From NCBI GenBank assembly GCA_946803585.1, contig CAMPEQ010000011.1, forward strand, positions 372,001 to 436,000: 64,000 bases of DNA, written 5' to 3'. The DNA is from an uncultured Actinomycetes bacterium. GTDB taxonomy: Bacteria > Actinomycetota > Actinomycetes > S36-B12 > UBA10799. Position numbers and translations under genes: made by a program. Position 1 is the stretch's first letter. The number at the start of each line of letters is the position of its first letter. Below the pieces are notes generated by a model. That model was not told where the DNA came from and made no database searches. It worked only from the letters and a program-made list of their open reading frames with translations. Positions 8,850-46,808 of the stretch are shown here, piece after piece.

Positions 8850-10187
8850 ATGTCGATCGAATTGTGGGGGCAGCCCACTGTTGACGATGCCATGGCAGTG
8901 CTTGGGGCGCTACAAGACGAAGTTGAGACGTTGAGTGGTGTCGATGCATCTGACCGGCTCTCGCGGGTAACAGCGTTGGCAGCACAGCTTGATGCCTACC
9001 GTGTCTCGCTGGTTGACACGATCCGCACGAGTGAGGTGTGGCGGGAGACAGACCCCAACGGCACCCCCGCTTCCTACTTGCGCAACGAGCACCTCATGGA
9101 TCAGCGGCAGGCAAAGTCCGACCTGCGAACCGCCACGGCATTCACCCGATTTCCTGAACTTGCGCAAGCTTGCCGGGCAGGTCGGGTCAGCCGTGCCAAA
9201 GTCGATGTCATCTTGGCGGTTGGGCTGAAGAACCAACATCGGGAAGATGCCCTAGGCGACTTCATTGCCATCTTCGTCGATCTGGCTGCTCGCGTCACGA
9301 TCTCGGACCTGAAGCGAACCCTTGAGCTTTGGGCTGATCAGATCGACCCCCTACCGAGCCCTGGTGACGGCAAGGACGCACATGCCCGACGAGAACTGCG
9401 CATTCACCAGCTCGGCGATGGGGTCAAACTCGATGGCTTCTTCGGCCCCGACCAAGGTATGCGGATCATGGTCGCAATCAACGGTGCCCTTGACCTGCAT
9501 CGCAGGGAGAATCCAGATGCCAAGGGGGCCGCTCAAGCCGATAATGCAAACGCCGAACATGGCAACTACCGGATAACCAATTCGACCGGTTCGCAACGGG
9601 CAGATGCGTTCATTGATGCCATCATCAACCCAATCCTGCAGGCTGGTTCGCTTCCGACTTCCGGCGGCGCTCCGGCCAATATCTGCGTGACAGTGCCACT
9701 CGAGCGCCTGCAGAGTCCAGACTCGCCCGTCGACGTCGATGAGCTCAAGGATCGCTTGGCGAACGGAACTTTGCGCCACCACTCTGCTGCAGTCGGTACG
9801 ACCAACGGTCCGGGCAACTTGCTGATCAACGCAGCCAAGGCCCAACAGCTTTCCTGTGACGCCACGATCCAGCGGATCATCCTGGATCCTGTTGGGAAGC
9901 CGCTGGATATCGGCCGTCGAACTCGCGTGATCCCCGAGCAAATCCGAACCGCCCTCGTCATCCGAGACGGGGGCTGCCGCTTCCCATTCTGCGACAAGCC
10001 AGCTGGATGGACCGAAGGTCACCATATTCAGCATTGGAGCCAGGGCGGGCCAACAAGCCTCGATAACCTCATTCTGCTCTGCTCTAGGCATCACCACCAG
10101 GTTCATTCCGAGCGAATACCGATCACCATGGGGAGAAACGGAATACCGAGAGTCGCGCTCGAGCACCGGTATAGCGATCGTTTGTAG
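8850..10187 (+). CDS. DUF222/HNH endonuclease (13E12-repeat type), SOS-controlled
   Basis: The ORF track starts at 8553, but that reading runs through the promoter and LexA box. ATG 8850 has GGAGG eight bases upstream. The 445-aa product contains the DUF222 region (residues about 15-330) and a C-terminal HNH nuclease domain near 375-425. The HNH domain has CRFPFC, the GHHIQHW core, NLILLC and HHHQVH, so the catalytic His-His-Asn-His set appears complete with a zinc Cys pair. These proteins are known as the 13E12 repeat family in M. tuberculosis, where several members have LexA boxes. They are often multicopy and their target is unknown. The gene interrupts the usual tmk-holB pair. Confidence 0.92.
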   Translation: MSIELWGQPTVDDAMAVLGALQDEVETLSGVDASDRLSRVTALAAQLDAYRVSLVDTIRTSEVWRETDPNGTPASYLRNEHLMDQRQAKSDLRTATAFTRFPELAQACRAGRVSRAKVDVILAVGLKNQHREDALGDFIAIFVDLAARVTISDLKRTLELWADQIDPLPSPGDGKDAHARRELRIHQLGDGVKLDGFFGPDQGMRIMVAINGALDLHRRENPDAKGAAQADNANAEHGNYRITNSTGSQRADAFIDAIINPILQAGSLPTSGGAPANICVTVPLERLQSPDSPVDVDELKDRLANGTLRHHSAAVGTTNGPGNLLINAAKAQQLSCDATIQRIILDPVGKPLDIGRRTRVIPEQIRTALVIRDGGCRFPFCDKPAGWTEGHHIQHWSQGGPTSLDNLILLCSRHHHQVHSERIPITMGRNGIPRVALEHRYSDRL

Positions 10188-10211
10188 CGATGACCTCAGT
10201 GATTGGTGAGG

Positions 10212-10249
10212 TGCCCCACATCGAGGTTACGCATGCGTAGGTTGGGGCA
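10212..10249. repeat. Nested palindrome between HNH and CsbD-like genes
   Basis: Outer arms TGCCCCA (10212-10218) and TGGGGCA (10243-10249) enclose a perfect 12-bp palindrome, TACGCATGCGTA (10228-10239). It may terminate the HNH transcript or serve as an operator for the downstream stress gene. No T-tract follows. Confidence 0.55.
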
Positions 10250-10342
10250 TGATGGAGGTGAGCAACACGAGATCCACCAGGGTTTGCCAGACCAACTATC
10301 GAGTCTGACGAGCCGAGATCTCCCAACCGAGAGGGTGAGCAT

Positions 10343-10537
10343 ATGAGCATCATCGACTCCACCAAGAACACTGCACTGTCCGTCAGCGGTCGCTCCAAAG
10401 AGATCGCCGGATTCGTCTTCAAGAACCGGGACCTTCAGACCGAAGGTAAGGCAGACCAGATCACCGCGAATCTCCGTCGCGCCCGCAGCAAAGGCACCGA
10501 GGCAGTCGCTTCCGTGCGCAAAGCGGCGGGGCTCTAA
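10343..10537 (+). CDS. CsbD-like small stress protein
   Basis: The 64-aa hydrophilic protein carries GRSKEIAGFVFKNRDLQTEGKADQI, which fits the CsbD pattern (GKxKExxGxxxxxxxLxxEGKxxQ), followed by a helical K/R/A tail. CsbD proteins accumulate under general stress (sigma-B control in Bacillus), and their molecular role is not established. ATG 10343 is preceded by GAGAGGGTGAG. It lies between the SOS-type HNH gene and convergent tmk. Confidence 0.7.
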   Translation: MSIIDSTKNTALSVSGRSKEIAGFVFKNRDLQTEGKADQITANLRRARSKGTEAVASVRKAAGL

Positions 10538-10610
10538 TCCGCCGACCGCATTCCGCCCAGCTGTGATCCGCTAGGGCTGATCTAGACCCAGATATATCGC
10601 GATCGCGCGG

Positions 10611-11243
10611 CTAGCCTAGGAGGCTGGTCGTGGCGGTCGCGATGCTATTTGCGATGACATCTGGCGACTGATCCGCCTCGATTACTAGATAGCGCCGCGG
10701 GTGCTCATTCGCCGCCATCAGGAACGCGGATCGCACCATCTCGTGAAAGCCCAGGTTCTCCGACTCCATCCGATCCGGTGCAGCATTCACTTGTCCTGCA
10801 CGGGCTAGACCCACAGTCGGATCGATATCCAGGATCAGCGTCAGATCAGGTAGTAGGCCGCCCGTCGCCCAGTGGCTCAATTCGCGGATCCTCTCGGCGC
10901 CGAGGTCGCGACCGAGGCCTTGGTAGGCAACCGAGGAATCAACGAACCGATCGCAAATAACGATCTTGCCGCTGGCTAACGCTGGTTCGATGAGGGCTGA
11001 GACGTGCTCGGCCCGCGCGGCGGCGAATAGCAACGCCTCGGCGCGTGGATTGAGACCGGAGTATTCGGGGTCGAGCACTAGTTCGCGGATCGCTTCGGCC
11101 CCCGCGGTGCCGCCTGGCTCTCGCGTAACGACGACCTCGTAGCCACTCGCACGAAGTGATGCGGCCAGCCGGGCAACTTGCGTCGACTTCCCTGCGCCTT
11201 CACCGCCTTCAAAGACGATGAACGCTCCCCGCTGAATGTTCAT
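10611..11243 (-). CDS. tmk: Thymidylate kinase
   Basis: The 210-aa enzyme phosphorylates dTMP to dTDP. It shows the P-loop FEGGEGAGKST at residues 10-20, TREPGGT for substrate binding, the DRFVDSS motif near residue 98, and a LID-region AGQVNAAPDRMESE. Length and motif order are those of the family. It begins 19 bp after the topA stop on the same strand, so the two are probably cotranscribed. The usual next gene, holB, is displaced by about 3 kb. Confidence 0.96.
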   Translation of the reverse strand: MNIQRGAFIVFEGGEGAGKSTQVARLAASLRASGYEVVVTREPGGTAGAEAIRELVLDPEYSGLNPRAEALLFAAARAEHVSALIEPALASGKIVICDRFVDSSVAYQGLGRDLGAERIRELSHWATGGLLPDLTLILDIDPTVGLARAGQVNAAPDRMESENLGFHEMVRSAFLMAANEHPRRYLVIEADQSPDVIANSIATATTSLLG

Positions 11244-11262
11244 ACTGCTACTTGACCACGGT

Positions 11263-14007
11263 CTACTTCACAGCCGACTTCTTGGCGGTGCTCTTCTTAG
11301 CAGCACTCTTTTTGGCTGTGCTTTTCTTCGCTGCGGTCTTCTTAGCGGGGGCCTTCTTCGCAGCTTTCTTAGCCCGCTTCTTTGGCGGCCCAGCCGCTCG
11401 GCGATCGGCGAGGAGTTCGACCGCTCGTTGCAGGGTGATCGTATTGGGATCATCCGCAACTCGAAGTGATGCGTTGGTCTCGCCGTCGGTGACGTACGGG
11501 CCGAACCGGCCATCCTTCAACATAATCATCGACTCGGTTGTTGGATCCGGACCGATCTCCTTACCCGGATCGGCTGCCGCGCGTCCGCGCTTCTTCGGCT
11601 CAGCAAGGAGTTTGAGTGCACCCTCCTCGTCGATCGAGAACAGGCTGGGCTCATCGGGCAACGAACGTGATTCCTTATTCCACGTGATGTACGGGCCGTA
11701 GCGGCCGTTACGCGCCAGGATCTCTTCGCCATCCTCGGGGTGGGCACATACGACGCGGGGTAGCGAGAGCAGCTTCATGGCGTCGTCGAAGGTCACGGTG
11801 TCTAGGTTCATGTCCTTGAACAGCGAAGCGGTTCGAGGTTTCACAGTTGCCTTGCGGCGGCGCTTTGGCTTCTTCTCGCCCTCGGCGACTGGCTCGGGTT
11901 CGGGCTCTTCAGGTAGAAGTTCGGTGACGTAAGGACCGTAGCGTCCGGTCTTAGCAACGATGACGTTACCGCTGGCTGGGTCTATCCCAAGTTCGCGATC
12001 ACCCGAGGGCATCGCGAGTAACTCTTCGGCGACCGTTGCGGTTAGCTCGTCCGGTGCCATATCAGCAGGAACGTTCGCTCGTTCGCCATCCTTTTCCAAG
12101 TACGGGCCGTATCGACCGACCCGCAGTAGTGCATCCGAGTCGCGGATAGGGAAGGTAGAGATACCCCGGGCATCGATATCGCCTAGACCAGCAACGAGTT
12201 GGTGCAGACCGGGGAAGTCCTTACCAGCGATTCCGGTACCACCCCGGTAGAAGTTCTCGAGCACCTGTAGCCGGGCCACGTCACCGGAGGCGACCGTATC
12301 GAGCGTCTGTTCCATCGTGGCGGTGAAGTCGTAGTCAACGAGGCCGCCGAAGTGCTCCTCCAGGAGCCGGATAACCGCGAAGGCTAACCAGCTTGGGGTC
12401 AGCGCAGTACCTCGTTTGAATACGTACCCACGATCCACGAGCACCGTCATGATCGAGGCGTAAGTACTTGGACGTCCGATACCGCGTTCTTCGAGCTGCT
12501 TTACCAGGCTGGCTTCGGTAAATCGGGCAGGTGGTTTGGTCGAATGTGGATCGACACTGAGGTCCGCGAGAGTGACCGTCTCCCCTTCGGCAAGAGCCGG
12601 TAGGCGGACCTCTTTCTTCTTACCGTCGTCCGCTGACGTCGCCTCGTCATCGCCCTCTTCGTAGGCGGCAAGGAAACCGGGGAAGGTGACAACCGTCCCG
12701 CTCGCACTGAACTCGGCACGTCGGTCGTCACTGGCCACGGCAGTCAACTTGATCGTGGTGGTAGCGATCTTTGCGTCAGCCATCTGCGACGCGACAGTGC
12801 GCTTCCAGATCAAGTCGTACAGCGCGAACTCATCGCCATGCAGCGTTCCGGCCACCTCAGCGGGAGTGCGGAAGACATCTCCGGACGGGCGAATCGCCTC
12901 GTGCGCCTCTTGGGCGTTCTTAACTTTGCGCTCGTAGCGCCGAGGGGCGGGAGAAACGTGGTCGTCTCCGTATAGCGCACCAGCCTGTTTGCGGGCTGCA
13001 CTAATCGCGGAGTCCGACAACGTGGTGGAGTCGGTACGCATATAGGTAATGAAGCCTCGCTCATAGAGGCCCTGGGCGATACTCATCGTGCGCTGTGCTC
13101 CCCAGCGCAGCTTGTTCGAGGCCTCTCGCTGCAAGGTGGAAGTCATGAACGGGGCAGCGGGTTTGCGCGTTCCGGGACGGCGTTCAACCGAAGTCACCGA
13201 CATCGGAGCATCCGTCAGTGCCGCGGCGAGCCCGCGGGCGCCAGCCTCATCTAGGCGCAGCAGATCGGGCTTCTTGAGCTGTCCGTTGTCGTCGAAGTCG
13301 TTACCGGAAGCAATACGCGAGCCATCCACCGATACCAGCCGAGCGGAGAACGACCCAGGGTCGACTGTCGCAGCGAGGTCCCAATATGAGGCGGTGGTGT
13401 AAGCGATTCGGGCACGTTCGCGGTCAACAATAAGCCGCAGTGCTACCGACTGCACCCGTCCAGCCGACAAGCCCTGCATAACCTTCTTCCACAGGACGGG
13501 CGAGACCTCAAAGCCATAAAGGCGATCGAGGATTCGGCGGGTCTCTTGGGCATCGACAAGGGAGCGATTGAGATCGCGGGTTTGTTCAGAAGCGCGCTGG
13601 ATTGCCTCTTTGGTGATCTCGTGGAAGACCATCCGCTTGACCGGAACCTTGGGTTTGAGGACCTCCAGCAGATGCCAGGCGATGGCCTCTCCCTCGCGGT
13701 CCTCATCTGTTGCGAGTAGGAGCTCGTCAGCTGACTCGAGCTTCTTCTTAAGCTCCGCAACCTTTGCCTTCTTCGACGGCGGAATAACCCAGATCGGCGC
13801 AAAGTCGTTGTCGACATCGATCGCCATCCGCGCCCACGGCAGCCCTTTGTACTTGGCGGGGGTGTCTGCGGCGTTCTTTGGGAGGTCGCGAATATGGCCG
13901 ACACTGGAGTCGACGTCATAGCCAGCGCCCAGGTAACCCTGGATCGTCTTAGCCTTCGCCGGTGACTCGACAATGACGAGGCGCCGAACAACATCTTTCG
14001 TGGGCAC
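11263..14007 (-). CDS. topA: DNA topoisomerase I
   Basis: The 914-aa type IA topoisomerase relaxes negative supercoils. Toprim begins at RRLVIVESPAKAKTIQGYLG and continues to the metal motif TDEDREGEAIAWH. The catalytic Tyr is in GFITYMRTDSTTLS. In place of Cys4 zinc fingers it has four copies of the actinobacterial C-terminal repeat G-R-(Y/F)-GPY, followed by a Lys/Ala tail of about 40 residues (AKKAPAKKTAAKKS type), which in mycobacteria and streptomycetes gives processivity. GTG 14007 has AAGGAG eight bases upstream. Confidence 0.97.
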   Translation of the reverse strand: MPTKDVVRRLVIVESPAKAKTIQGYLGAGYDVDSSVGHIRDLPKNAADTPAKYKGLPWARMAIDVDNDFAPIWVIPPSKKAKVAELKKKLESADELLLATDEDREGEAIAWHLLEVLKPKVPVKRMVFHEITKEAIQRASEQTRDLNRSLVDAQETRRILDRLYGFEVSPVLWKKVMQGLSAGRVQSVALRLIVDRERARIAYTTASYWDLAATVDPGSFSARLVSVDGSRIASGNDFDDNGQLKKPDLLRLDEAGARGLAAALTDAPMSVTSVERRPGTRKPAAPFMTSTLQREASNKLRWGAQRTMSIAQGLYERGFITYMRTDSTTLSDSAISAARKQAGALYGDDHVSPAPRRYERKVKNAQEAHEAIRPSGDVFRTPAEVAGTLHGDEFALYDLIWKRTVASQMADAKIATTTIKLTAVASDDRRAEFSASGTVVTFPGFLAAYEEGDDEATSADDGKKKEVRLPALAEGETVTLADLSVDPHSTKPPARFTEASLVKQLEERGIGRPSTYASIMTVLVDRGYVFKRGTALTPSWLAFAVIRLLEEHFGGLVDYDFTATMEQTLDTVASGDVARLQVLENFYRGGTGIAGKDFPGLHQLVAGLGDIDARGISTFPIRDSDALLRVGRYGPYLEKDGERANVPADMAPDELTATVAEELLAMPSGDRELGIDPASGNVIVAKTGRYGPYVTELLPEEPEPEPVAEGEKKPKRRRKATVKPRTASLFKDMNLDTVTFDDAMKLLSLPRVVCAHPEDGEEILARNGRYGPYITWNKESRSLPDEPSLFSIDEEGALKLLAEPKKRGRAAADPGKEIGPDPTTESMIMLKDGRFGPYVTDGETNASLRVADDPNTITLQRAVELLADRRAAGPPKKRAKKAAKKAPAKKTAAKKSTAKKSAAKKSTAKKSAVK

Positions 14008-14205
14008 GAAACGTGCTCCTTTGCATTGATCTTGTTACTTGGCTGGGTGGTGCTGGGGCGATTCCCCTGTCGACACAATAGGCAATTCCGATATGGACGT
14101 TACCCACGATGTCAAACCGACCCGAGATGTACCCCCACAAATACCGTTTCAAACATTCGCTGGACGTATCCCTTTTGATCGTTCATAGGGCGAGTAGAGA
14201 AAGCG

Positions 14206-14253
14206 AATAGGGCCGTGGGCGACACACCATGGTGTGCCACTCACGACCCTATT
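14206..14253 (-). terminator. Hairpin terminator downstream of hppA
   Basis: AATAGGG-c-CGTG pairs with CACG-a-CCCTATT around an inner ACACCATGGTGT palindrome. On the minus strand it is followed by the pyrimidine-rich CGCTTTCTCT. It lies about 30 bp past the hppA stop. The rest of the 270-bp gap to topA shows nothing I can name. Confidence 0.65.
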
Positions 14254-14281
14254 GCGCGGTGTAGCGGTTGCTAGCTGCTCA

Positions 14282-16738
14282 CTAGCTGACCGGCGTTGAC
14301 TCTTCTTTCGAATCGCCGTTGCCGTTGTCAGCAGCCTCATCGGAGGCCGGTGCGTCAGCGGTGTCACCTGGTGACTGCGGATCGTCGGAACCCTTGAGGT
14401 TCTCGTCGATGTCGTCCTCGCCGACGGCAATCGGGCGACGGTTGCTGATGATGACGGCAGCCACAATGATGGCGGTCGCGCCGGCAGCAATACCTAGCCG
14501 TAGCCCGGTCTGCTCGGTGAGGAACATCGTCACAACTGCTGGTGCGATAAGCAGAGCGACCAAGTTCATGACCTTGATGAGCGGGTTGATGGACGGGCCG
14601 GCGGTGTCCTTGAACGGATCACCGACTGTGTCACCAATAACGGTGGCCTCGTGCGCTGGTGAGCCCTTTCCACCGTAGTTGCCATCCTCGACGTACTTCT
14701 TGGCGTTATCCCATGCCCCACCGGAGTTGGACAAGAAGACGGCCATCAGCAGTCCGGTCGCAATCGTTCCGACCAGGAAGGCACCGAGAGCGCCGATACC
14801 GAGAGAGAACCCAACCGCGATCGGTGTGAGTACCGCGAGCAGGCCAGGTGTGGCCAGCTCACGGAGCGAATCGCGAGTCACGATGTCGACGACGCGAGCG
14901 TACTCAGGCTTCTCCGTACCTTCCATGATGCCGGGGTGATCGCGGAACTGGCGGCGAACCTCGAAGATAACCGCACCTGCGGCACGGGAGACGGCGTTGA
15001 TAGCCAGCCCCGAGAACAGGAACACGACAGCGGCACCGATGATCAGACCGACCAAGTTACGCGGGTTGGCCACATCAAGAATGCCCAGGTACTGGGTTCC
15101 ATTGGTGAAGCCGAGTCCTTCCAGAACACGTGGGGTGCTCTCCTGGACTGATACCACTGCCTCGCTAATCGAGTCTCGGAATGCTCCGAATAGCGCGGTC
15201 GCCGCTAGGACAGCCGTCGCAATCGCGATTCCCTTGGTGATTGCCTTGGTGGTGTTTCCGACAGCGTCCAGGCTGGTAAGAACCTGCGCGCCTTCCTCAT
15301 CAACGTCACCGGACATCTCGGCAATACCTTGGGCATTGTCCGAGATCGGTCCGAACGTATCCATCGCGACGATGACGCCGACGGTGGTGAGCAATCCGGT
15401 ACCGGCCATCGCGATGGCGAACAGGCTCAGCAGCAGCGAACCGCCGCCGAGTAGGAACGCACCGTAGACGGCGGCACATACAACCAGCGCGGAGTAAACA
15501 GCCGACTCCAGCCCGAGTGAGATACCCGAGAGGATGACGGTTGCTGGCCCGGTCAGTGAGGACTGCGAGACGGTGTCGACCGGCTTGCGGTCAGTCTCGG
15601 TGAAGTAGCCCGTGAGGACCTGCATAGCTGCTGCCAGCAAGATTCCGATCAGGACTGCACCGATGATGATGTAGCGGGGGTTAACCGTGGTCAGTTCGAA
15701 GACCTCGAGTCCCAAACGTGGGAAGTCAACGCCCTTGAGCTCGGCCAGTGTGGCTGGTAGGAGCAAGAAGGAACCGACGACGACCAACACGGCCGAGATG
15801 ATCGCCGAGATGAAGAAGCCACGGTTAATGGCGGTCATACCCGAACGGTCGTTCTTTCGCGGCGCAATGGTGAAGATACCGATCATCGCAGTGATGACAC
15901 CAATGGCCGGAATGATCAGCGGAAGAACGAGCCCGATTTCACCGAAGGCTGCCTTACCCAAAATGAGTGCAGCCACGAGCGTGACGGCGTAGGACTCGAA
16001 GAGGTCAGCTGCCATACCCGCGCAGTCGCCCACGTTGTCGCCGACGTTGTCAGCGATGGTGGCGGCGTTGCGGGGGTCATCCTCTGGGATGCCTTGCTCG
16101 ACCTTGCCGACCAGGTCGGCGCCGACGTCGGCAGCCTTGGTGAAGATTCCGCCACCGACTCGCATGAACATAGCGAGAAGAGCGGCACCAAATCCGAAGC
16201 CTTCAAGGACCTTGGGGGCGTCTCCCTTATAGATAAGGACGACGAGCGCGGCACCGAAGAGTCCAAGCCCAACGGTGAACATTCCGGCAACGCCACCGGA
16301 GCGGATCGCGATCTTCATCGCTGGAACCTCGCCCGCGTCTTGCGCGGCGGCTGCGACGCGAACGTTGGCCCGAACTGCTAGCCACATTCCGACGTAGCCC
16401 GTGACACCGGAGAACACTGCTCCGACGACGAAGAAGATGGACCGACCGATTCGCTCCGAGTTGGTCTCGGCCGGAAGCAGGAATAAAACGAAGAAGACGA
16501 TGACAGCAAAGATGCTGAGCGTCTTGAACTGGCGGGTCAGGTATGCGGCGGCGCCCTCTTGCACGGCCCCGGCGATCTCCTGCATGTTCTCAGTGCCCTG
16601 GCTGTTGGCGAGTACGCCACGAACCAGGACCGCCGCCACTACCAGCGCTAGTAAGGCAATGAGAGCCACAATCACCGCGTAGGTGAAGTTGGCGCCTTCT
16701 AGCGCGACAGTGACGTCGGCAGCCAAAACTGCTGACAT
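14282..16738 (-). CDS. hppA: Membrane-bound proton-translocating pyrophosphatase, K+-independent type
   Basis: The 818-aa polytopic protein couples PPi hydrolysis to H+ export. It has the substrate motif DVGADLVGKVEQGIPEDDPRN, the NVGDNVGDCAGM block, and a C-terminal NTSGGAWDN-like segment (SNSGGAWDNAKKYVEDG) with GDTVGDPFKDTAGPS. The diagnostic position reads GNTTKAITKG. Lys in place of Ala marks the K+-independent subfamily. About 16 helices are expected. The C-terminus carries an unusual acidic tail of about 45 residues rich in D, E, S and P. It is monocistronic with a strong hairpin downstream. Confidence 0.96.
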   Translation of the reverse strand: MSAVLAADVTVALEGANFTYAVIVALIALLALVVAAVLVRGVLANSQGTENMQEIAGAVQEGAAAYLTRQFKTLSIFAVIVFFVLFLLPAETNSERIGRSIFFVVGAVFSGVTGYVGMWLAVRANVRVAAAAQDAGEVPAMKIAIRSGGVAGMFTVGLGLFGAALVVLIYKGDAPKVLEGFGFGAALLAMFMRVGGGIFTKAADVGADLVGKVEQGIPEDDPRNAATIADNVGDNVGDCAGMAADLFESYAVTLVAALILGKAAFGEIGLVLPLIIPAIGVITAMIGIFTIAPRKNDRSGMTAINRGFFISAIISAVLVVVGSFLLLPATLAELKGVDFPRLGLEVFELTTVNPRYIIIGAVLIGILLAAAMQVLTGYFTETDRKPVDTVSQSSLTGPATVILSGISLGLESAVYSALVVCAAVYGAFLLGGGSLLLSLFAIAMAGTGLLTTVGVIVAMDTFGPISDNAQGIAEMSGDVDEEGAQVLTSLDAVGNTTKAITKGIAIATAVLAATALFGAFRDSISEAVVSVQESTPRVLEGLGFTNGTQYLGILDVANPRNLVGLIIGAAVVFLFSGLAINAVSRAAGAVIFEVRRQFRDHPGIMEGTEKPEYARVVDIVTRDSLRELATPGLLAVLTPIAVGFSLGIGALGAFLVGTIATGLLMAVFLSNSGGAWDNAKKYVEDGNYGGKGSPAHEATVIGDTVGDPFKDTAGPSINPLIKVMNLVALLIAPAVVTMFLTEQTGLRLGIAAGATAIIVAAVIISNRRPIAVGEDDIDENLKGSDDPQSPGDTADAPASDEAADNGNGDSKEESTPVS

Positions 16739-18977: not shown

Positions 18978-19778
18978 TCACGAGGCCAACCCGTTGGCAA
19001 TCAAACTGGCGATAAGCGGGACAACGCCGAGCAGCATGAAGGCAGGCAAGAAACACAGGCCCAAGGGCCCGACAGCCTTCACCCCGACGGCCTTTGCCGC
19101 CTGATCTAGCTGCGCCTTGCGCGTTGAGCGCAGGTCGTCACCAACTCTCAGCAACGTCGCGGACAGCGGTGCGCCCGTCTCAGCAGAGCGCAGAATCGCC
19201 CGGGCAATAGGCGCCAACGACGGCTCGTTGGTCAGCGGTAGCCAGACCCGCCGATGATCCGCCCCGAGCTCGAACTGTGCGACGCATTCACGCAGCAGTT
19301 CTGCGCTCGGACCTCCGATCGCTTGTGCAGTAGCAGCAGTTGCGCCCGGGGTTGACGCTCCGCTAGCTACACATGCGGCCAGCAGGTCGGCGACCATCGC
19401 CGCGCTCACTTCAATCTGGACTCGTCGACGTCGATCGTCTGCCGGTTCTAGCCGCCGTAGCGCTCGGGGCCCGAAGACGACCACCCCCACGGCCAGCCCA
19501 ACCCCGAGGACTCCACCGACGAGGAAGAACAGCGCACACCCCGCCACAACGCACGCGATCACTTGCAATCGGGCGGTCCGCTGCGCAGCGGCGACTTCGT
19601 TCTCTTGGCGTTGTGCCAACACCGCGTCCGACACAGATTCCCGCGACTGCACCCGGGCAACCTGCGAACTCCGTCGTTGCGAGACACCGGCGAGGCGCTC
19701 ATGCACGGGCCGACTACCCAACATCAGGTAGCACGCGACTGCGGCACAAACAGCGCAGAACCAACCAGCAGTCGTCAT
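18978..19778 (-). CDS. tadC: Type II secretion F-domain protein (TadC)
   Basis: The 266-aa integral membrane protein has hydrophobic helices near residues 5-20, 75-105 and 240-262, with the T2SSF domain between (EVSAAMVADLLAACVASG, ARAILRSAETGAPLSATLLRVGDDLR). It is one of two inner-membrane platform proteins of the Tad pilus machine. Its start overlaps the tadB stop by four bases. Confidence 0.88.
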   Translation of the reverse strand: MTTAGWFCAVCAAVACYLMLGSRPVHERLAGVSQRRSSQVARVQSRESVSDAVLAQRQENEVAAAQRTARLQVIACVVAGCALFFLVGGVLGVGLAVGVVVFGPRALRRLEPADDRRRRVQIEVSAAMVADLLAACVASGASTPGATAATAQAIGGPSAELLRECVAQFELGADHRRVWLPLTNEPSLAPIARAILRSAETGAPLSATLLRVGDDLRSTRKAQLDQAAKAVGVKAVGPLGLCFLPAFMLLGVVPLIASLIANGLAS

Positions 19779-20461
19779 AGCAGCACCTCAACGGAGCGGG
19801 TGAGGCGCGCGATCCACCACAGCCCGACAGCTTCCAGAGCGCATCCGAGCACGAGAACCAGCCAACCCCACGGGGAACCAAACAACCAGGCCAGCGGGGA
19901 GGCACCTAACCCGCTTCCCAACAACATCCCCAGGATTGGCAACCCGGCAAGAACTCGCGCTGTTGCTCGCGGTCCAGCGAGCTGAGCGGATAGCTCTGCT
20001 CTTGCGAGCTCCGCCTGAGACTGGGCAATTGCCAGTCGATCTGCTGCCTGTGCAAGACCAGCACCTGACCCCTCCGCGACTCGCCATAGCGCTGCCAGTG
20101 AGCGCAATACCGGAAGCTCTCCTTGTGCTGCGGCTACCTCCAACGCTCGGGGTACGTCGCCCCCGAGCTCGGCTACCGCCACGACTTGGGCGCCAACACC
20201 ACCGGGGCTTGATTGTTGTGCTCGCACGAAGGCTTGCCGAACCGGCTGACCCGCGCGCAGTTCGGCAGCAAAGGCCGCAACTAGTTCAATGGCCGCACGG
20301 CGTTGCCGCGTATGTAGTGCGCGACGTCGAAAGTGTCGGACCCATCGCTTCTCGGTCGTTCGAGTCGTCAACGGCTGTCGAAGGTGAACGAGTGAACGTG
20401 GCGGACGTGTGGCCAACAACAATGCGGAAGCGACGAGAGCGCCGATCAATACAGGTGTCAC
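19775..20461 (-). CDS. tadB: Type II secretion F-domain protein (TadB)
   Basis: The 228-aa protein has an N-terminal membrane segment, a basic cytoplasmic stretch, the F-domain (AAFAAELRAGQPVRQAFVRA, LAAQGELPVLRSLAALWRVAEGSGAGLAQA) and two C-terminal membrane helices. It should pair with TadC as the platform on which the CpaF ATPase acts. Four-base overlaps on both sides show tight coupling within the operon. Confidence 0.88.
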   Translation of the reverse strand: MTPVLIGALVASALLLATRPPRSLVHLRQPLTTRTTEKRWVRHFRRRALHTRQRRAAIELVAAFAAELRAGQPVRQAFVRAQQSSPGGVGAQVVAVAELGGDVPRALEVAAAQGELPVLRSLAALWRVAEGSGAGLAQAADRLAIAQSQAELARAELSAQLAGPRATARVLAGLPILGMLLGSGLGASPLAWLFGSPWGWLVLVLGCALEAVGLWWIARLTRSVEVLL

Positions 20462-21678
20462 AAGTCATCCGCTGTGAGCTGTACCGAGAGCCTCGCGGCT
20501 AAGGCTGCACCCGCTGGTCGTAAATGAACGCCGTCGGTGGTGAAGTCCACCGCCGGGTGAGCACTGACGAGTCCGTTCGACTCGCGCACGAGCGTATGGA
20601 TTCCCGCCACTCGTCGTACCCCGTCGCGGTCACGATCGATGTGGATCACGGCATCAAGCCCAGCTGCGACCTGCGAATGTAGGGCATCGCGCCCGAGCCC
20701 CGCCGCGAGTGCTAGCGCTTCTAGCCTGGCCGGTACGTCTGCTGAGCTGTTCGCGTGGACGGTTCCGCAACCACCCTCATGGCCGGTATTGAGCGCAGCC
20801 AGGAGGTCAATCACCTCAGCACCCCGGACCTCTCCAACAACCAGGCGATCGGGTCGCATCCGTAGGGCTTGTTTGACCAGATCGCGCATACTCACATGGC
20901 CCGATCCCTCGACGTTCGCTGGACGAACCTCCAGTCGGACTACGTGCTCATGATCTGGATCGAGCTCACCAGAATCCTCAACGATGAGGGTCCGCTCACC
21001 AGCTGGTACGAGTGAAAGCAACGCGCTCAGCAGGGTGGTCTTGCCGGTGCCGGTACCCCCGGAAACGAGGAAGGCCGCTCGAGACTGGACAAGGGCGAGC
21101 AGCCACGGAATCGCCCGCTCCGGGATTGTTCCCAAGTCGGCTAAGTCCGCCAAGGTGAATACCCGGCGGCGAGGGATTCGCAAGGAGATACACGTCCCTC
21201 TAGGCGCGATCGGTGGCAGTACCGCGTGCAGGCGGGTTCCGTCGGTCATTCGGGCGTCGACGTAGGGAGTTGCCTCGTCCAATCGGCGGTTGGCGGCCGC
21301 TGCTAGGCGCTGCGCTAGGCGGCGGACGGCACCTTCGTCCCGAAACCGAATCGTGGTACGGGTCAACCCGTTTCCCTCGTCCACCCAGACAGACTCCGGG
21401 CCGTTGACTAGAACATCCGTGACATGCGGGGCGCGCAGTAACGCCTCGAGTGGACCTGCCCCGGCAAGCTCACTTCGCAATGCGACCACGACGTCGAGCA
21501 CAGCGGCATCGCCAAGGATGGCGCCTTCTGACTGCAGCGCGGATGCCACCCGAGAAGGGGTCGGCTGATCGCCATTGGCGGCTAGTCGGTCACGAACTCG
21601 GTCAACTAGGGCCTCCGGCACGGTTGGCCGCTGCGGCGTCGCGGAAGGTAGCCGCAATGAGCTCATCTCCGACGTCAT
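20458..21678 (-). CDS. cpaF: Tad pilus assembly ATPase (CpaF/TadA)
   Basis: The 406-aa secretion ATPase has an N-terminal domain, then [15 protein letters not shown], Walker [15 protein letters not shown] near residue 212, the Asp box [20 protein letters not shown], Walker [15 protein letters not shown], and the His box [14 protein letters not shown]. All motifs are intact. It powers pilin extrusion as a hexamer at the cytoplasmic face. It overlaps both neighbours by four bases. Confidence 0.95.
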
Positions 21679-22934
21679 CTGCGCCTGCTATCGCCGGCAA
21701 TCCCAACGGCGGACAACACGGCGGTGCTGGCCTTTCGCAGGCCACCTCTGACTCCGACTGGAGGTAGGCCCTGCTCCAGGCGGCGGTCCACTCGGCTATC
21801 ACCCGGGATGTCACACAACAATGGGATCCCGAGCGAATCGGCGATCCGATAGGCCTCGAGTCCGACCGGAGCGGGACCTCGAACGACGAGTTGCAGGTTG
21901 GCCCCGGCCAACTCCTCGCTTTCCAGCAGGCGAGCTGCGCTCACGACAGCAGTACTACGCCTCGGCACGACCAGCGCAACCATGGCACTACGGCAGACCA
22001 CCTCTGCAGCCGAGTCCCCGAGGGTCCGCGGGAGGTCGATCGACATGAAGTCACAGGACTGGGCAAGCGCGTCGATTGTTGCCCCAGCGACCCCCGGCCC
22101 CAGAGTGTGCACCCGAGAGTCTCCCCACCCGAGGACAGCAACATCGGCGAACCTCGGCAGTGCCGATAGCAGCGAGTCCCCCCGAACTCGACCCTTTGTT
22201 TGCGCGAGCTCCTCCCAGGACAGACCTACCGGACGATCAGCTCCGAGCAGGGTCGCCAACCCCGACCCAACCGGGTCGAGATCCACCGTGCAAGCGGGTC
22301 GCCCTAGCTGGGCGGCGCCGACCGCTAGAGCAATACTGAGCGAGCTTGCGCCCGCACCTCCGCATGCTCCCAAGACGGCGATGGTCGGCGCGCTCGCGCG
22401 ACCCTCTACTCCTACGGCGGCGAGACGGTCAACCAGCCAGACCTCGCCCTCGGGAAGTAAGGCAACCCGATCGGCACCCAGGGCCGCGGCCCGTTGCCAC
22501 ACCGAATCGTTCGCCCCAGGTGCCCGCGTAGCCACGATTACCCCAGCACGGCGGGGAACAAATCCCTGGGACAGTTCCCCTGCCACATCTGCCCCCAATA
22601 CGACGAGGCGGTGATTACTCCAGCGGCTGCGCAGTGCACCTGGGGTAGTCGCGACGTCGGGCTCCACCCCGGCCGCTGCGGCTAGCCGCAGGAGGTCATC
22701 GAGGAGCTCCACATCGTCCGTTGCCAGCAGCGGTCTGCGCGACGGTGCGTGATCAACCGCCAGCGGATTCGCTCCTTGGCCCGTCAAGGGATCGCTGGTT
22801 CGGGCACTCGACCAGCCGCTGAGGTGCTGGGCGGAACCGCTGCCTTGTCCCGTCGCGGGAGTCCAACGCGGATCGCCGGATCTAGGTGTTGCAGCCGTTG
22901 AAACCATGGAGCTAGCGTCATCGACAACGCGCAA
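21675..22934 (-). CDS. ssd: CpaE/Ssd-like septum-site or pilus-localising protein
   Basis: The 419-aa protein has a Pro/Ser/Gly-rich N-terminus (about 70 residues), a receiver-like segment (ELLDDLLRLAAAAGVEPDV...VVLGADV) and a MinD/ParA-like domain from residue 180. The deviant Walker A reads GACGGAGASSLSIAL, where the usual GKGGVGKS/T lysines are missing, as in Ssd of mycobacteria and CpaE-like proteins of actinobacterial Tad loci. It probably positions the Tad machine or modulates division and may not hydrolyse ATP normally. It is the first gene of the operon. ATG 22907 is an alternative start. Confidence 0.85.
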   Translation of the reverse strand: MRVVDDASSMVSTAATPRSGDPRWTPATGQGSGSAQHLSGWSSARTSDPLTGQGANPLAVDHAPSRRPLLATDDVELLDDLLRLAAAAGVEPDVATTPGALRSRWSNHRLVVLGADVAGELSQGFVPRRAGVIVATRAPGANDSVWQRAAALGADRVALLPEGEVWLVDRLAAVGVEGRASAPTIAVLGACGGAGASSLSIALAVGAAQLGRPACTVDLDPVGSGLATLLGADRPVGLSWEELAQTKGRVRGDSLLSALPRFADVAVLGWGDSRVHTLGPGVAGATIDALAQSCDFMSIDLPRTLGDSAAEVVCRSAMVALVVPRRSTAVVSAARLLESEELAGANLQLVVRGPAPVGLEAYRIADSLGIPLLCDIPGDSRVDRRLEQGLPPVGVRGGLRKASTAVLSAVGIAGDSRRR

Positions 22935-33240: not shown

Positions 33241-33896
33241 GTCAACTGCACCCCTAAGTACTGCTCGACTAGTTCCGCGAGCTCCTGCTCGCTCGTCACG
33301 ATATTGGCTCGCCCGGCGATCTCACCGTCGGGCCTCACGAAGATGGTGGTCGGGACACCAACGACCGATAGACCGGCCCGGATCTTTGACTCTGGATCCT
33401 GCACCGATGGGAAGGACATATTGGTTGCGGCGGCCATTCCGAGTGCGGCTATTTGGTCATCGGCCATGTCGATTCCGAGGAAGCCAACCTCGGTGCTGTT
33501 CTCCCGGTAGAACTGCCCCATCATCGGCAGCTCCTCCCGACAAGGGCCGCACCACGATGCCCACACATTGACGACGTAAGGCTTCCCGCGCAGACCAGCT
33601 AGATGAACGTCGGGGCCCTGCCCCAAACAAGACAACGTCAGCTCAGGGAGGCCACCAGCAACCGGCTCGATTGAGGCATCACTCGTGGGGCAGTCAGCTA
33701 GCCCCGCCTCCTCGATTAGCTGCGCTGAAGCTCCATCGGAGGTTCCCGGTGCAGGCACCGTTGTCTCCTGCGTTGGCAGCGCCGATCCTGCCGGGGCAGA
33801 TCCGTCTTGGGCGCCGCAGGCAGTCAACCCGAACACTGCAGCGATGGCTGCAAACACGGCCAGTGGCCAACTACGCCGATGGGATCTCCACATCAT
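33237..33896 (-). CDS. TlpA-like thioredoxin-fold lipoprotein
   Basis: I start this gene at ATG 33896, which overlaps the nth stop as ATGA. The 219-aa product begins with a basic n-region, a hydrophobic helix and the lipobox LTAC. The thioredoxin-like domain has the redox motif [13 protein letters not shown] near residue 120, VGFLGIDM, and the cis-Pro [14 protein letters not shown]. Two further Cys (ADCPTS and LSCLG) sit before the domain. It probably reduces or exchanges disulfides outside the membrane. It is coupled to nth and the nudix gene in one operon (nth, tlpA, nudix). Confidence 0.9.
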
Positions 33897-34639
33897 GCCG
33901 GGGGTCCAGACTTGATCAACTTTGCCGCTACCACCGGATCCGTCGGTCCCTCCCCAAACGAGGGACACCACTTCGCCACCGGACAGGCCCCGCAGGCTGG
34001 GCGCCGAGAGAAACAGCACCGACGGCCATGGAAGATCATTTGATGAGAGAGCGGGGTCCAGTCCTTACGCGGAAAGAGCGCGCCAACCTCTGCTTCCACC
34101 TTCACCGGGTCGGCCTCGTCGGTCCAGCCGAATCGCCTCGAGAGGCGACCAAAGTGGGTGTCAACTGTGATCCCGGGAGTATCGAACGCATTCCCGAGCA
34201 CGACGTTGGCCGTCTTGCGGCCAACACCGGGCAACGTCACTAGCTCCTTGAGCTTGTTGGGAACCTCACCGTCGTAGCGTTCACAGACCGCTTGAGCCAT
34301 CCCCAGTAAGGAGTTCGTCTTAGCGCGAAAGAACCCGGTCGATCGGATGATCTCTTCGAGCTCCTCACGGTTGGCGGCCGCCAACGCGTGCGCATCCGGA
34401 TATCGGGCGAATAGCTCTGGAGTCACCATATTCACTCGCACATCTGTGCACTGCGCCGACAGAATCGTTGCGACCAGCAGCTGTAGCGGCGTCTCAAAGG
34501 TCAGCTCGCAGTGTGCGTCTGGATATGTCTGTGCCAGCACCCGTCCTATCTTGCGAGCGCGGCGAACGAGCTGGGTGTGAGTCTGTTCAGCGTTAGCCCC
34601 TTTGGCTGACGTCCCGCTCACTCCCGCCCTTGTGACCAC
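33893..34639 (-). CDS. nth: Endonuclease III
   Basis: The 248-aa base-excision enzyme removes oxidised pyrimidines and cuts the abasic site. The helix-hairpin-helix [17 protein letters not shown] holds the catalytic Lys and [14 protein letters not shown] the Asp. The [4Fe-4S] loop is C-x6-C-x2-C-x5-C ([17 protein letters not shown]). The start is GTG 34639, and the N-terminal 15 residues are likely disordered. It heads the nth-tlpA-nudix operon. Confidence 0.96.
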
Positions 34640-34795
34640 CCGATCAGCCTACGCCGGCGATATTTCGCGGGTGATTCGGTTCAAGTCCACGGGGGGTGGG
34701 CCGATAGGTAGGTAGCGAACAGGCAACCGCCACTTCGCTAAGCAGCTCCTGTGAAAGGGAGTCTTGGTCAAGCTCAACGGAAAGGATCCACAGCA

Positions 34796-35323
34796 ATGTC
34801 ACCCGATCCCGTGTTGAGCCTGCACCCTGCCCTGGCTGGAGCGGAACCACCCAACGATGACCTCACCCTCCTAGAGCTCGATCAGCTGAGGGAGCGGCGG
34901 AAAGCACTCACGGAGCGGGAGGCACAGGTCTCCTACTGGCGACGGATCATTCAGGCCCGACTAGACCTCATCCGCGATAGCTCTATCCACGGGGCTGCCA
35001 CGGCAGAAGGTCTTGAGCGAGTTCTGACCCAGCAGCTAGGGGCCAACCAACGTTTGGGAATCTTGAGCGTTCAGCCTCGCGGCGCGGCCCCCCTCGCTGG
35101 CCTCGACCGGCTCTGGAATCGAACGGTTGGTGATGACCAGGCGGCCGGTACTGAACTAGAAGCCGACCTATTGGCAGCCGAGCGCGAGCTCTCTTCCCTT
35201 CGTTCAAGGCTCTTCGGACAGATCGACGCCGCCACTGCAGAGATGATTCGGCGGTATCGCGAGAACCCTCGGCTTGCCTTCACCGCACTTCCTAGCCGGG
35301 AAAACAGGCCGGCGCCGCTGTAG
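34796..35323 (+). CDS. rsiG: RsiG-like c-di-GMP-responsive anti-sigma factor
   Basis: The 175-aa protein from ATG 34796 (AAAGGA nine bases upstream) is mostly two long helices. Residues 42-57 read E-AQV-S-YW-R-RII-Q-ARL-D, an exact match to the published RsiG c-di-GMP motif E(X)3S(X)2R(X)3Q(X)3D. Residues 129-144 give a second copy, E-REL-S-SL-R-SRL-F-GQI-D, with Phe in place of Gln. In Streptomyces, RsiG bound to c-di-GMP holds the sporulation sigma factor WhiG. No WhiG gene is in the window, so the target sigma is unknown. A GGDEF enzyme lies 10 kb away. The middle region (60-118) is a less ordered linker. Confidence 0.82.
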   Translation: MSPDPVLSLHPALAGAEPPNDDLTLLELDQLRERRKALTEREAQVSYWRRIIQARLDLIRDSSIHGAATAEGLERVLTQQLGANQRLGILSVQPRGAAPLAGLDRLWNRTVGDDQAAGTELEADLLAAERELSSLRSRLFGQIDAATAEMIRRYRENPRLAFTALPSRENRPAPL

Positions 35324-35469
35324 GTCGGTCTCGTGTTGTGCGCAAACTCGTTCGAATATTGTTCAGGGACTCTCTCAGCGTGCAAGACTGAGGTGGCTTG
35401 CGCCACAATCAGCGCTGCAATGGTTGTTTAAATAGGGCATTGACGATCCAGAGTTTCGAGAGGTATTCC

Positions 35470-36144
35470 GTGGAAGATGTACTGAGTCGCGCACCGATGT
35501 TTGCGGCCCTCGATCCGGAGGCTGCAGCAGCGCTGCAGGCCTCAATGGAAACGCTGTCCCTAGGCAAAGGACAGGTCCTCTTCAACGAGGGCGAGCGTGG
35601 TGACCGGCTCTATGTGATCACCGAAGGCAAGATGAAACTCGGCCACACCTCAACCGACGGACGCGAGAGTCTGCTCGCTGTCCTCGGCCCGGCGGAACTT
35701 CTCGGCGAGCTCTCACTCTTCGATCCCGGCCCACGAACCGCGACTGCAACCGCTTTGACCGAAACTTCCTTGATGGGGCTAGGTCATGCGGCTTTGCGAC
35801 CTTGGCTGACCGGGCGACCCGAAGTCGCCGAAGCACTGTTGCAAGCGCTTGCTCAACGTCTGCGACGCACGAACGATCAAATGGCCGATCTGGTGTTCTC
35901 GGATGTACCCGGACGGGTTGCTAAGACGCTACTAGATCTTGGCGAGAAGTTCGGACGGCCATTACCTGATGGTGTCCACGTCACCCACGACATGACCCAG
36001 GAAGAACTCGCTCAGCTCGTTGGGGCCTCCCGCGAGACGGTCAACAAGGCACTGGCGGACTTCGCTGCTCGCGGCTGGATCCGCCTCGAATCACGATCGG
36101 TCGTGCTGATCGATCCTGAGCGACTCGACCGCCGATCCAAGTAG
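35470..36144 (+). CDS. crp: Crp/Fnr-family transcriptional regulator (actinobacterial Crp)
   Basis: The start is GTG 35470 (VEDVLSRAPMF) with GAGAGG six bases upstream; the ORF track begins 72 bases earlier. The 224-aa product has a cyclic-nucleotide domain with GELLGELSLFDPGPRTATATALTE, containing the Glu and Arg that contact cAMP, a long dimer helix, and an HTH with MTQEELAQLVGASRETVNKALADF. It aligns well with Streptomyces Crp (SCO3571) and mycobacterial Crp (Rv3676), global regulators of development and metabolism. The stop codon lies in a hairpin shared with the convergent gene. Confidence 0.94.
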   Translation: MEDVLSRAPMFAALDPEAAAALQASMETLSLGKGQVLFNEGERGDRLYVITEGKMKLGHTSTDGRESLLAVLGPAELLGELSLFDPGPRTATATALTETSLMGLGHAALRPWLTGRPEVAEALLQALAQRLRRTNDQMADLVFSDVPGRVAKTLLDLGEKFGRPLPDGVHVTHDMTQEELAQLVGASRETVNKALADFAARGWIRLESRSVVLIDPERLDRRSK

Positions 36145-44453: not shown

Positions 44454-45383
44454 GCTTTGCGCTCCCGACCGATCATCCACACTCTCGGCGGGACAGTGGC
44501 GGCAGGCGCCGTCCTCGGCACGGCAGTCCTGGCCTACTCGCTGATCGAAGCTCGCTCCTACCGATTGCGACAGGTAGTGGCGCCTGTTCTAGCCCCTGGA
44601 TCCAACGATCTGCGAGTACTACATCTTTCCGATCTGCACCTAACCCCCGGCCAATCGGACAAGATCGCCTGGGTCAACTCGTTAGCGGAACTAGAACCGG
44701 ACTTCGTTGTGGGCACCGGCGACTTCCTCGCACACCGCGATTCGGTTGGCCCGCTAGCCAATGCCCTAGGACCGCTGTTGCAAGTACCCGGAGCCTTTGT
44801 CCTCGGATCGAATGATTACTTCTCGCCAGGGATGAGCAACCCACTGGCCTACCTGCGCGGTCCATCCGAACGTGACCGAGGCAAACCCGATCTACCCTGG
44901 CAAGAACTCGTCTCCGCGCTGTCCTCCGGGGGCTGGGCAGATCTAACAAATCGCCACGACATGATGACCGTAAATCACGACCTCATTGACATGCGCGGAG
45001 TGGATGATCCGCACATCACCCGGGACGACTACTCCGCGGTCGCCGGACCGTTCGATCCCACTGCCGCACTGCGCCTCGGGGTAGCCCACGCGCCGTACCT
45101 ACGCGTCATCGACGCGATGGCCGCCGACGGCGCGGACCTGATTCTGGCTGGGCACACCCATGGTGGCCAGGTCTGCATTCCCGGATACGGCGCACTCGTG
45201 ACAAACTGTGATCTTGATACAGCCCGGGTCAAGGGGTTGAGCCAGCACCACGAATCGACAATGCACGTATCAGCGGGACTCGGTACCAGTCCGTTCGCAC
45301 CGATCAGGCTCGCTTGCCCGCCGGAGGCGACTCTGCTGCGGCTCGTTGCCCGAGAATCAGTCGCGGACCACATTCCCGCCTGA
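44451..45383 (+). CDS. Membrane-anchored metallophosphoesterase
   Basis: From ATG 44451 the product has 310 aa. One N-terminal hydrophobic helix (TLGGTVAAGAVLGTAVLAYSLI) anchors the calcineurin-like domain: LHLSDLHLTPG, VVGTGDFLAH, VLGSNDYF (variant of GNHD with Ser) and LILAGHTHGGQVCIPG. These supply the two-metal site. It is YkuE/Rv3683-like and follows ponA2 as in mycobacteria. The substrate is unknown. Its last 27 bases overlap the convergent diguanylate cyclase gene. Confidence 0.9.
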   Translation: MALRSRPIIHTLGGTVAAGAVLGTAVLAYSLIEARSYRLRQVVAPVLAPGSNDLRVLHLSDLHLTPGQSDKIAWVNSLAELEPDFVVGTGDFLAHRDSVGPLANALGPLLQVPGAFVLGSNDYFSPGMSNPLAYLRGPSERDRGKPDLPWQELVSALSSGGWADLTNRHDMMTVNHDLIDMRGVDDPHITRDDYSAVAGPFDPTAALRLGVAHAPYLRVIDAMAADGADLILAGHTHGGQVCIPGYGALVTNCDLDTARVKGLSQHHESTMHVSAGLGTSPFAPIRLACPPEATLLRLVARESVADHIPA

Positions 45384-46583
45384 GTCCTTCGCCCGATAAA
45401 GGGCCTGGTCGGCGCGCCGTACTAGCTCAGCAACCGCCTCACCCCCGCGCAGTGTCGCCGCACCGAAACTCGCCGCGCACCCGAGGGAATCAGCAGCAAG
45501 GCGCATCCGCTCCGCGACAGCCCTGGCTCCAACCAAATCTGTCTGCCGCAGCAACACAAGAAACTCATCCCCACCGAGGCGCCCGGCCGCATCAGCCGCA
45601 CGCAACTCGCTTTGGATGGCCTGCGCCATATCCTTGATCTTCGCGTCACCAACCGCGTGGCCACCCGTATCGTTGGCTTCCTTCAAGCCATCGAGATCGA
45701 CGACCAATACCGAAAACAGGTCATCGGCTAACCCCGCGTCGGTCCACATTCGGTCTGCCGCGTTGAATACTGCTCGCCGATTCGGCATACCTGTCAACGG
45801 GTCAGTAAAGGAGAGCTCGATGAGTCTGTTATTCACACTCACGGCTTCGCGCCGCTCGTTCTCTCGCCGCGTGACGTCAAAGAAGGTAACCGCGATATCG
45901 GATAACACTCCCTGTGAGTTGAACCGTGGCTGAGCGTTCACCTCACACCATGTGATCGCGCCTTGCACGCTCCGGATCCCCACGAGTTGACCCTTCACCG
46001 AACTACCTGCAAGAACCTGCATCACCGGAAACCGCTCGACTGGTAACGGCTCCATCGCCTCATCGAGGAACTGCCACTCAGGATCGGTCGCAACGCGGCC
46101 CGCCACATGCTCAACTCCAAGTATCTCCGATGCCTTCGTATTCGCCTCAATAATCGAGGTATCTGGAGCGTGCAGCACCACAGCTGCATCAACTGCGGCC
46201 ATCGCCGAAGCAGAACGGCTCTCCGTTACATTCGAGAAGAAGATTGCGACGAGACCATCGCCCAGCGGAACGTACTCATTTCGCAACCACCGCCACGCGC
46301 CAGCTAAATCGGCGAACCCGAACTCGCTCGTCGACCGCTCGCCCTGCGCGGCAGCTCGCCATGCGTAGTCAACCGGACGGTCCCCGACCACCCCAGTCGT
46401 GACAAGAGGGAACGTCTCGACCAGGCGCTTACCTAGATGGCTCTCGAGATCGAAACCAACATCTTGACTAGCTGCCTGATTAGCCCATTCGAGTACCAAA
46501 TCAGCCGGATCGTCGCCGTGGGCACGCCACACTGCAACACCAAGAGGGCACACAGCAAGGATCCTGTGGAAATCAACCCTCAT
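45357..46583 (-). CDS. PAS-GGDEF diguanylate cyclase
   Basis: ATG 46583 has GAGGGGG six bases upstream; the longer track ORF would enter the tRNA-Pro region. The 408-aa soluble protein has PAS-like sensor segments (residues about 5-115 and 120-240), then a GGDEF domain with DPLTGMPNRRAVF, LVVDLDGLKEANDTGGHAVGD and the intact active site AGRLGGDEFLVLL near 335. An RAAD I-site lies five residues before GGDEF, indicating feedback inhibition by c-di-GMP. No EAL domain is attached. It is the only c-di-GMP enzyme in the window and could supply the RsiG-like protein. Confidence 0.93.
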   Translation of the reverse strand: MRVDFHRILAVCPLGVAVWRAHGDDPADLVLEWANQAASQDVGFDLESHLGKRLVETFPLVTTGVVGDRPVDYAWRAAAQGERSTSEFGFADLAGAWRWLRNEYVPLGDGLVAIFFSNVTESRSASAMAAVDAAVVLHAPDTSIIEANTKASEILGVEHVAGRVATDPEWQFLDEAMEPLPVERFPVMQVLAGSSVKGQLVGIRSVQGAITWCEVNAQPRFNSQGVLSDIAVTFFDVTRRENERREAVSVNNRLIELSFTDPLTGMPNRRAVFNAADRMWTDAGLADDLFSVLVVDLDGLKEANDTGGHAVGDAKIKDMAQAIQSELRAADAAGRLGGDEFLVLLRQTDLVGARAVAERMRLAADSLGCAASFGAATLRGGEAVAELVRRADQALYRAKDSGGNVVRD

Positions 46584-46664
46584 AGCAGCCCCCTCGTTAG
46601 CTCCTGCGGGTAACGATACGCCCCCTGTGCCACTTTGATCAACAGACGGAACCGAGCACCCCAT

Positions 46665-46808
46665 GCCCACGCTGCGCGCGGACGGCCAACAATTTTGTCG
46701 GGGTAGCGGGAGCCGTCGCAATACGCGCTACGCGCGCTCCTCCCAAATCCCACAAGCAAACTAAAATTATTGGCCGCCCACGCTGCGCGCGGACGGCCAA
46801 TAATTTTG

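Follow-up and report, generated by a model that had tools for sequence, protein, structure and literature searches.

Does the small protein encoded between nth and crp in the window (the whole stretch of 64,000 nucleotides of an uncultured actinobacterium analysed here) act as RsiG, the c-di-GMP-armed anti-sigma factor of WhiG, and if so, which sigma factor does it hold? According to PMC8325347, c-di-GMP is known to target no sigma/anti-sigma complex other than RsiG-WhiG, and RsiG is present as a single copy with one exception among the genomes. The protein, here named RsiG-B, is a little-noticed second RsiG paralogue that is encoded beside crp in many actinobacteria. The reading that we favour, with a probability of roughly 0.6, is that RsiG-B is a c-di-GMP-armed anti-sigma factor of a WhiG-class sigma factor and is transcribed by that same sigma factor (negative feedback).

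A twin-motif gene between nth and crp

The gene, its motifs and its neighbours are located as follows:

34796..35323, plus strand: rsiG-B, encoding a twin-motif RsiG-family protein of 175 amino acids, start codon ATG; matches PF22802 and belongs to a clade apart from Streptomyces venezuelae RsiG
34919..34966, plus strand: c-di-GMP motif 1 (residues 42-57, EAQVSYWRRIIQARLD), exact E(X)3S(X)2R(X)3Q(X)3D
35180..35227, plus strand: c-di-GMP motif 2 (residues 129-144, ERELSSLRSRLFGQID), with Phe in place of the His typical of the family
33893..34639, minus strand: nth, endonuclease III (HhH-GPD, EndIII), divergent upstream neighbour; profile match, conserved synteny
35398..36144, plus strand: crp-family regulator, downstream neighbour, longest open reading frame; PF00027 and PF13545, conserved synteny
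45357..46721, minus strand: PAS-GGDEF diguanylate cyclase with RxxD I-site; PF00990, 116 bits

The window gene is real. Both motifs are at the places given in the original prediction, the first exact and the second with F for Q; in terms of the twin-motif pattern E(X)3S(X)2R(X)3[Q/H](X)3D, motif 2 deviates at the Q/H position and keeps the rest. The strict motif occurs once in the 67,343 amino acids of the window's open reading frames (0.03 occurrences expected from shuffles), and two loose motifs were found in one shuffled open reading frame in 0 of 200 rounds. The gene order is also as had been described, with nth upstream and divergent and crp downstream on the same strand; the true start of crp may be near 35470-35497. 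The GGDEF enzyme noted 10 kb away is present and has its I-site, the RxxD being located five residues before the GGDEF (RAADAAGRLGGDEF). The genome has 20 GGDEF matches, this one included, and the nearness of the enzyme to rsiG-B thus carries little weight: a functional meaning of this neighbourhood was dropped.

Elsewhere in the window, a TadA-like secretion ATPase (PF00437, 200 bits) with adjoining membrane and ParA-like genes (18978-22934, minus strand) indicates a probable Tad pilus cluster. The same genome has a type IV pilus cluster on contig C11 (positions 10009-16559 of the stretch 470001-490000, L215) with genes for a PAS-GGDEF protein, the major pilin, PilT, PilB and PilC; a c-di-GMP-binding domain of the MshE type is present in this PilB (NF053729, 56 vs 38 bits).

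Family membership and predicted fold

RsiG-B matches the Pfam family RsiG (PF22802) in two stretches with an E-value of 2.5e-16 and 59.6 bits (curated cut-off 27). Strong sequence matches in the PDB are restricted to the RsiG proteins of Rubrobacter and Streptomyces, with Rubrobacter radiotolerans RsiG as best match to helix 1. A template-free AlphaFold model, built from an alignment of B-type proteins only (54 rows), has long helices at residues 28-60 and 115-156 with a pLDDT of about 90 or more, which carry motif 1 and motif 2, respectively. When this model was used in a fold search, the four best PDB matches were all S. venezuelae RsiG (TM 0.42-0.48, probability 0.98-1.00); these were the only meaningful matches, at E-values that were in no case below 0.001. 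The model thus predicts an antiparallel coiled coil of two long motif-bearing helices, and Pfam, PDB sequence matches, model and fold search all support the RsiG-type family and paired-helix fold first proposed for this gene. As a member of this family, RsiG-B would be expected to bind a c-di-GMP dimer.

RsiG-B and RsiG-A are paralogues

The genome that contains the window (2.71 Mb, 98.8% complete) encodes a second RsiG protein with both motifs, on contig C3, adjoining ygfZ. This protein, RsiG-A, matches S. venezuelae RsiG with an E-value of 7.6e-34, compared to 9.7e-4 for the window gene. A phylogenetic tree of 143 rows, in which exact rooting and the order within clades are not resolved, has a long branch (1.66, SH-aLRT 98) that separates two groups: one side contains all nth-crp, Nocardioides and third copies (clade B), the other S. 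venezuelae RsiG and the ygfZ-type copies (clade A). The genome also has one WhiG (335 amino acids, C7:458109-458789), encoded on a different contig from rsiG-B, which at 397 bits exceeds the NCBIfam cut-off for WhiG (343 bits) and whose gene adjoins, by inspection, a XerC-like gene. A second match to the FliA/WhiG profile, at C8:16655, is SigF-like and below the cut-off (143 bits).

As the genome encodes WhiG and, with RsiG-A, also has the gene orthologous to Streptomyces RsiG, the window gene is a paralogue rather than an RsiG without WhiG. The initial description of the gene as lacking WhiG nearby holds within the window but is misleading for the genome, where WhiG is not missing, and its reading as RsiG itself is not compatible with the tree. 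Judged by sequence comparison, RsiG-B is an ancient paralogue, and the Streptomyces RsiG orthologue of this genome is RsiG-A.

Distribution and synteny

When the B alignment was used to scan 85,462 species genomes, 80 loci were obtained, from Candidatus Nanopelagicales, Frankiales, Acidothermaceae, Motilibacter, Nocardioides and others. Related loci were found with the pattern Ex[QR][VI]SYWRR[IL], and the conservation of E, S and R in motif 1 is therefore partly by construction, while positions 11 and 15 of motif 1 and all of motif 2 are unaffected. In 62 of the 80 loci, rsiG-B adjoins nth and/or crp (Nanopelagicales, Frankiales and Acidothermaceae); the remaining 18 are of Nocardioidaceae type (hand count). 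An A copy is present in 34 of 50 genomes with RsiG-B (hand count), and 43 of the 50 named RsiG-B genomes encode a FliA/WhiG sigma factor above the cut-off. Six RsiG-B MAGs have no FliA/WhiG match at E <= 1e-50, and in a seventh the sole match is truncated and falls short of the curated cut-off. G159, which belongs to the six, nonetheless has a sigma factor gene beside rsiG-B.

Across 395 genomes sampled evenly from the class and counted by eye, the E-values of matches to B (1e-45 to 1e-64) were well separated from those to A (1e-8 to 1e-20), with one divergent third copy (5e-30) as an exception between the two ranges. About 59 of these genomes have RsiG-B; about 45 matched Streptomyces-like genomes (one genus, 6-11 Mb) have A and no B. 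Within the window's order, each of the 27 genomes whose WhiG scores at least 269 bits has RsiG too, and nearly all of the other genomes have neither; a genome that lacks RsiG almost always lacks such a WhiG.

In a published survey of 134 genomes, the one second RsiG copy was that of Acidothermus cellulolyticus 11B, which was counted and not studied (PMC8325347); in the present set, genomes with two copies are frequent in several lineages. An Acidothermus MAG (L083, L180) has rsiG-B between nth and crp in addition to RsiG-A, and the second RsiG of A. cellulolyticus 11B is probably an RsiG-B orthologue.

The order nth-rsiG-B-crp in 62 of 80 loci could mean that the siting beside crp is functional and that RsiG-B acts together with the CRP encoded next to it, so that control by c-di-GMP and by cAMP would be linked. 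We consider this very unlikely: the whole block of NUDIX, TlpA, nth, crp and metallo-hydrolase genes is conserved, so that the place of rsiG-B beside crp may be passive, and the Nocardioides and third copies are sited elsewhere.

Some further loci deserve mention. Four Frankiales-like MAGs have third RsiG copies of B-type (L195-L198), which adjoin a histidinol-phosphate aminotransferase-like gene in at least two cases (by inspection). Degenerate third RsiG-like genes are found near GGDEF genes at L200:2655-5803 and L201; the one of L200 has lost motif residues and lies behind a GGDEF-EAL gene, which it overlaps on the same strand. The rsiG-B genes of three MAGs labelled Bifidobacterium breve and Acidobacteria (L101, L102, L108) group in freshwater-actinobacterium and Nocardioidaceae branches; these records are probably mislabelled or mixed bins.

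The second motif

Motif 1 is nearly invariant at its last two positions in the nth-crp copies (Q in 65 of 66, D in 66 of 66). In motif 2, position 11 is H in 60 and F in 6 of the 66 copies, and position 15 is D in 35, A in 17, S in 6, E in 4, T in 3 and Q in 1, while D is found in 47 of 50 A copies. With motif 1 fixed and position 15 of motif 2 variable, site 1 is retained in the B clade while site 2 drifts. In the structure of Rubrobacter RsiG, likewise, the c-di-GMP dimer is held less firmly at one of its ends (PMC8325347).

In the reading taken from the original prediction, the window protein would be the Streptomyces RsiG orthologue, with the Phe in place of Gln at position 11 as an asymmetry that may change ligand stoichiometry. 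This is highly improbable. By tree and match strengths the gene is not that orthologue, and the residue typical of the family at this position is His, which is commoner than Gln. The window protein has H to F as its sole change and keeps E129, S133, R136 and D144; the Phe is shared with the sister species (G010) and is found on three separate branches of the tree in all, as would be expected for a tolerated stacking substitution. It thus does not by itself imply a changed stoichiometry, and altered stoichiometry was rejected as a conclusion from it. The Phe could still stack on guanine.

The relaxed motif 2 in clade B raises the question of whether the RsiG-B complex may differ. RsiG-B could be a competitor or c-di-GMP sink that binds c-di-GMP, or WhiG unproductively, and so relieves RsiG-A, with positive feedback as the outcome. 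This is improbable, as the window protein retains all polar residues of motif 2, and as Nocardioides, which has B-type RsiG only and has it beside a sigma factor gene, possesses no RsiG-A to be relieved. An anti-sigma function of RsiG-B on a WhiG-class sigma factor remains our preferred reading.

The probable sigma factor partner

In Nocardioides, rsiG-B is found either between pilT and pilB in the type IV pilus cluster or before a sigma factor gene: at four loci (L108, L121, L130, L131) it is directly upstream of a FliA/WhiG-type sigma factor gene on the same strand, and two isolates (L203, L204) have pilus genes, rsiG-B and the sigma factor gene within one stretch of 20 kb. This gene order is the strongest indication that the proteins of clade B act on a sigma factor of the FliA/WhiG class.

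The region expected to contact the sigma factor is the loop between the helices, as in S. venezuelae RsiG (PMC8325347):

34976..35137, plus strand: loop joining the two long helices (residues 61-114), with B-type signature up to the invariant W107; defined by loop consensus and model helices

The B loop has the consensus PPLPDL..LW with an invariant Trp and differs from the A-type loop. RsiG-B could therefore be a c-di-GMP-armed anti-sigma factor of another sigma factor, for example one of SigB/SigF-type on C8, with RsiG-A alone serving WhiG, and the SigF-like profile match described above would be a candidate. By inspection, the gene of this SigF-like protein sits behind an RsbW-like kinase gene and thus may already own an anti-sigma factor, and the Nocardioides copies adjoin a FliA/WhiG-type gene; together with the promoter described below, this makes another sigma factor an unlikely partner. 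A different sigma partner, as suggested earlier, keeps a low probability; the Nocardioides operons point to the FliA/WhiG class. With WhiG encoded in the same genome and a sigma factor as neighbour in Nocardioides, RsiG-B may bind WhiG in a c-di-GMP-dependent way.

A candidate WhiG-type promoter upstream of rsiG-B

The comparison of orthologous upstream regions, and only this comparison, revealed a promoter signal:

34681..34707, plus strand: candidate WhiG/FliA-type promoter, TCAA-N15-GCCGATAG; position and spacing are kept, with 88 bp from the -10 element to the ATG

The published WhiG/flagellar consensus is TAAA / GCCGATAA. The window site is near the start codon and has two mismatches to TAAA-N15-GCCGATAA, which is within the limit of two mismatches or fewer used for the WhiG regulon. 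A TCAAG-N14/15-GCCGAT element pointing at rsiG-B is present in 33 of 64 loci. When the pattern T[AC]A[AG]-N-[GA][CGT]CGA[AT] was counted with spacers from 6 to 27 in the 64 orthologous upstream regions, it was found towards rsiG-B with spacer 15 in 16 and with spacer 16 in 17 regions and with any other spacer in at most 3; on the reverse strand it was absent at spacers 15 and 16. The corresponding numbers towards the gene for 50 rsiG-A upstream regions are 0 (spacer 15) and 2 (spacer 16). The element is absent upstream of rsiG-B in Nocardioides, and in about half of the nth-crp copies none was detected.

A PSSM built from the sites of other genomes was used to scan 2.27 of the 2.71 Mb of the own genome, and the rsiG-B site is among the top five matches. 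Three of these five are intergenic and before a gene (rsiG-B, an M23 peptidase and an unknown protein), compared to about 3% of all matches above threshold. A genome-wide search for the strict TAAA-N15-GCCGATAA with one mismatch was uninformative (2 matches vs 6 in the control), and the pilA, pilT, pilB, GGDEF and whiG genes of the own genome have no convincing site of the published consensus. WhiG is the likely reader of the rsiG-B promoter because the consensus fits and because WhiG is the only clear FliA/WhiG sigma factor of the genome. The promoter suggests that WhiG switches on its own brake.

Similar sites were noted elsewhere. In 15 of 50 A loci (L022, L023, L032, L046, L165, L177, L180, L182, L185, L186, L189-L192, L194) the same element (TCAA-N16-GCCGA) points away from rsiG-A at a divergent gene, with a DUF4388 in all four tested; the WhiG regulon may include this gene. 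The best intergenic sites of the own genome precede the genes of the M23 peptidase (C8:55075-56013), the unknown protein (C8:204514-205266), a lysozyme-like protein (C8:64736-65587) and a CBM2/GH18 protein (C11:888805-890946), a possible cell-wall regulon.

A proposed circuit and its known relatives

At high c-di-GMP, the two long antiparallel helices of RsiG-B would bind c-di-GMP through both motifs; this would order the loop and the C-terminus, which would then clasp a sigma factor of the FliA/WhiG class by its sigma2/sigma4 domains. The clasped sigma factor, most likely the only WhiG of the genome, would be held inactive. Since a promoter of the WhiG type precedes rsiG-B, free WhiG would lead to more RsiG-B, its own c-di-GMP-armed anti-sigma factor, and this negative feedback would cap or shut off the WhiG response. 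RsiG-A, which is without such a promoter, would be a standing brake on WhiG, and the feedback by RsiG-B would come on top.

RsiG-B shares with S. venezuelae RsiG (PDB 6PFJ/6PFV), a c-di-GMP-armed anti-sigma factor of WhiG, the twin motifs, two long helices with a loop and a WhiG in the same genome, but differs in its conserved loop and C-terminal tail, its separate paralogous clade, the His or Phe in motif 2, the nth-crp siting and the WhiG-type promoter. The single-motif RsiG of R. radiotolerans (PDB 7LQ2-7LQ4; PMC8325347) has the same motif but is a homodimer with one motif and no long loop, while RsiG-B has two motifs in one chain; it has a published link to type IV pili (PMC8325347), which recalls the pilus clusters that contain rsiG-B in Nocardioides. 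The proposed circuit would be analogous to flgM/fliA logic with c-di-GMP as the gate. FlgM of enteric bacteria is an anti-sigma factor of the sigma-28-class factor FliA and is transcribed by that sigma factor, as proposed for RsiG-B, but is a protein unrelated to RsiG-B and is relieved by export rather than gated by c-di-GMP.

More tentatively, many actinobacteria may have one WhiG under two c-di-GMP-armed anti-sigma factors, RsiG-A, which would be constitutive, and RsiG-B, which WhiG would induce and in which one c-di-GMP half-site is fixed and the other relaxed. If true, this would provide a two-threshold c-di-GMP switch with built-in, c-di-GMP-gated negative feedback. The existence of another conserved lineage of RsiG, distinguished by its loop, by a second ligand site that is relaxed and by a WhiG-type promoter, would turn RsiG-WhiG into a feedback circuit, would allow the evolution of anti-sigma specificity to be tested and would extend the switch to the type IV pili of Nocardioides and to uncultured freshwater and soil actinobacteria.
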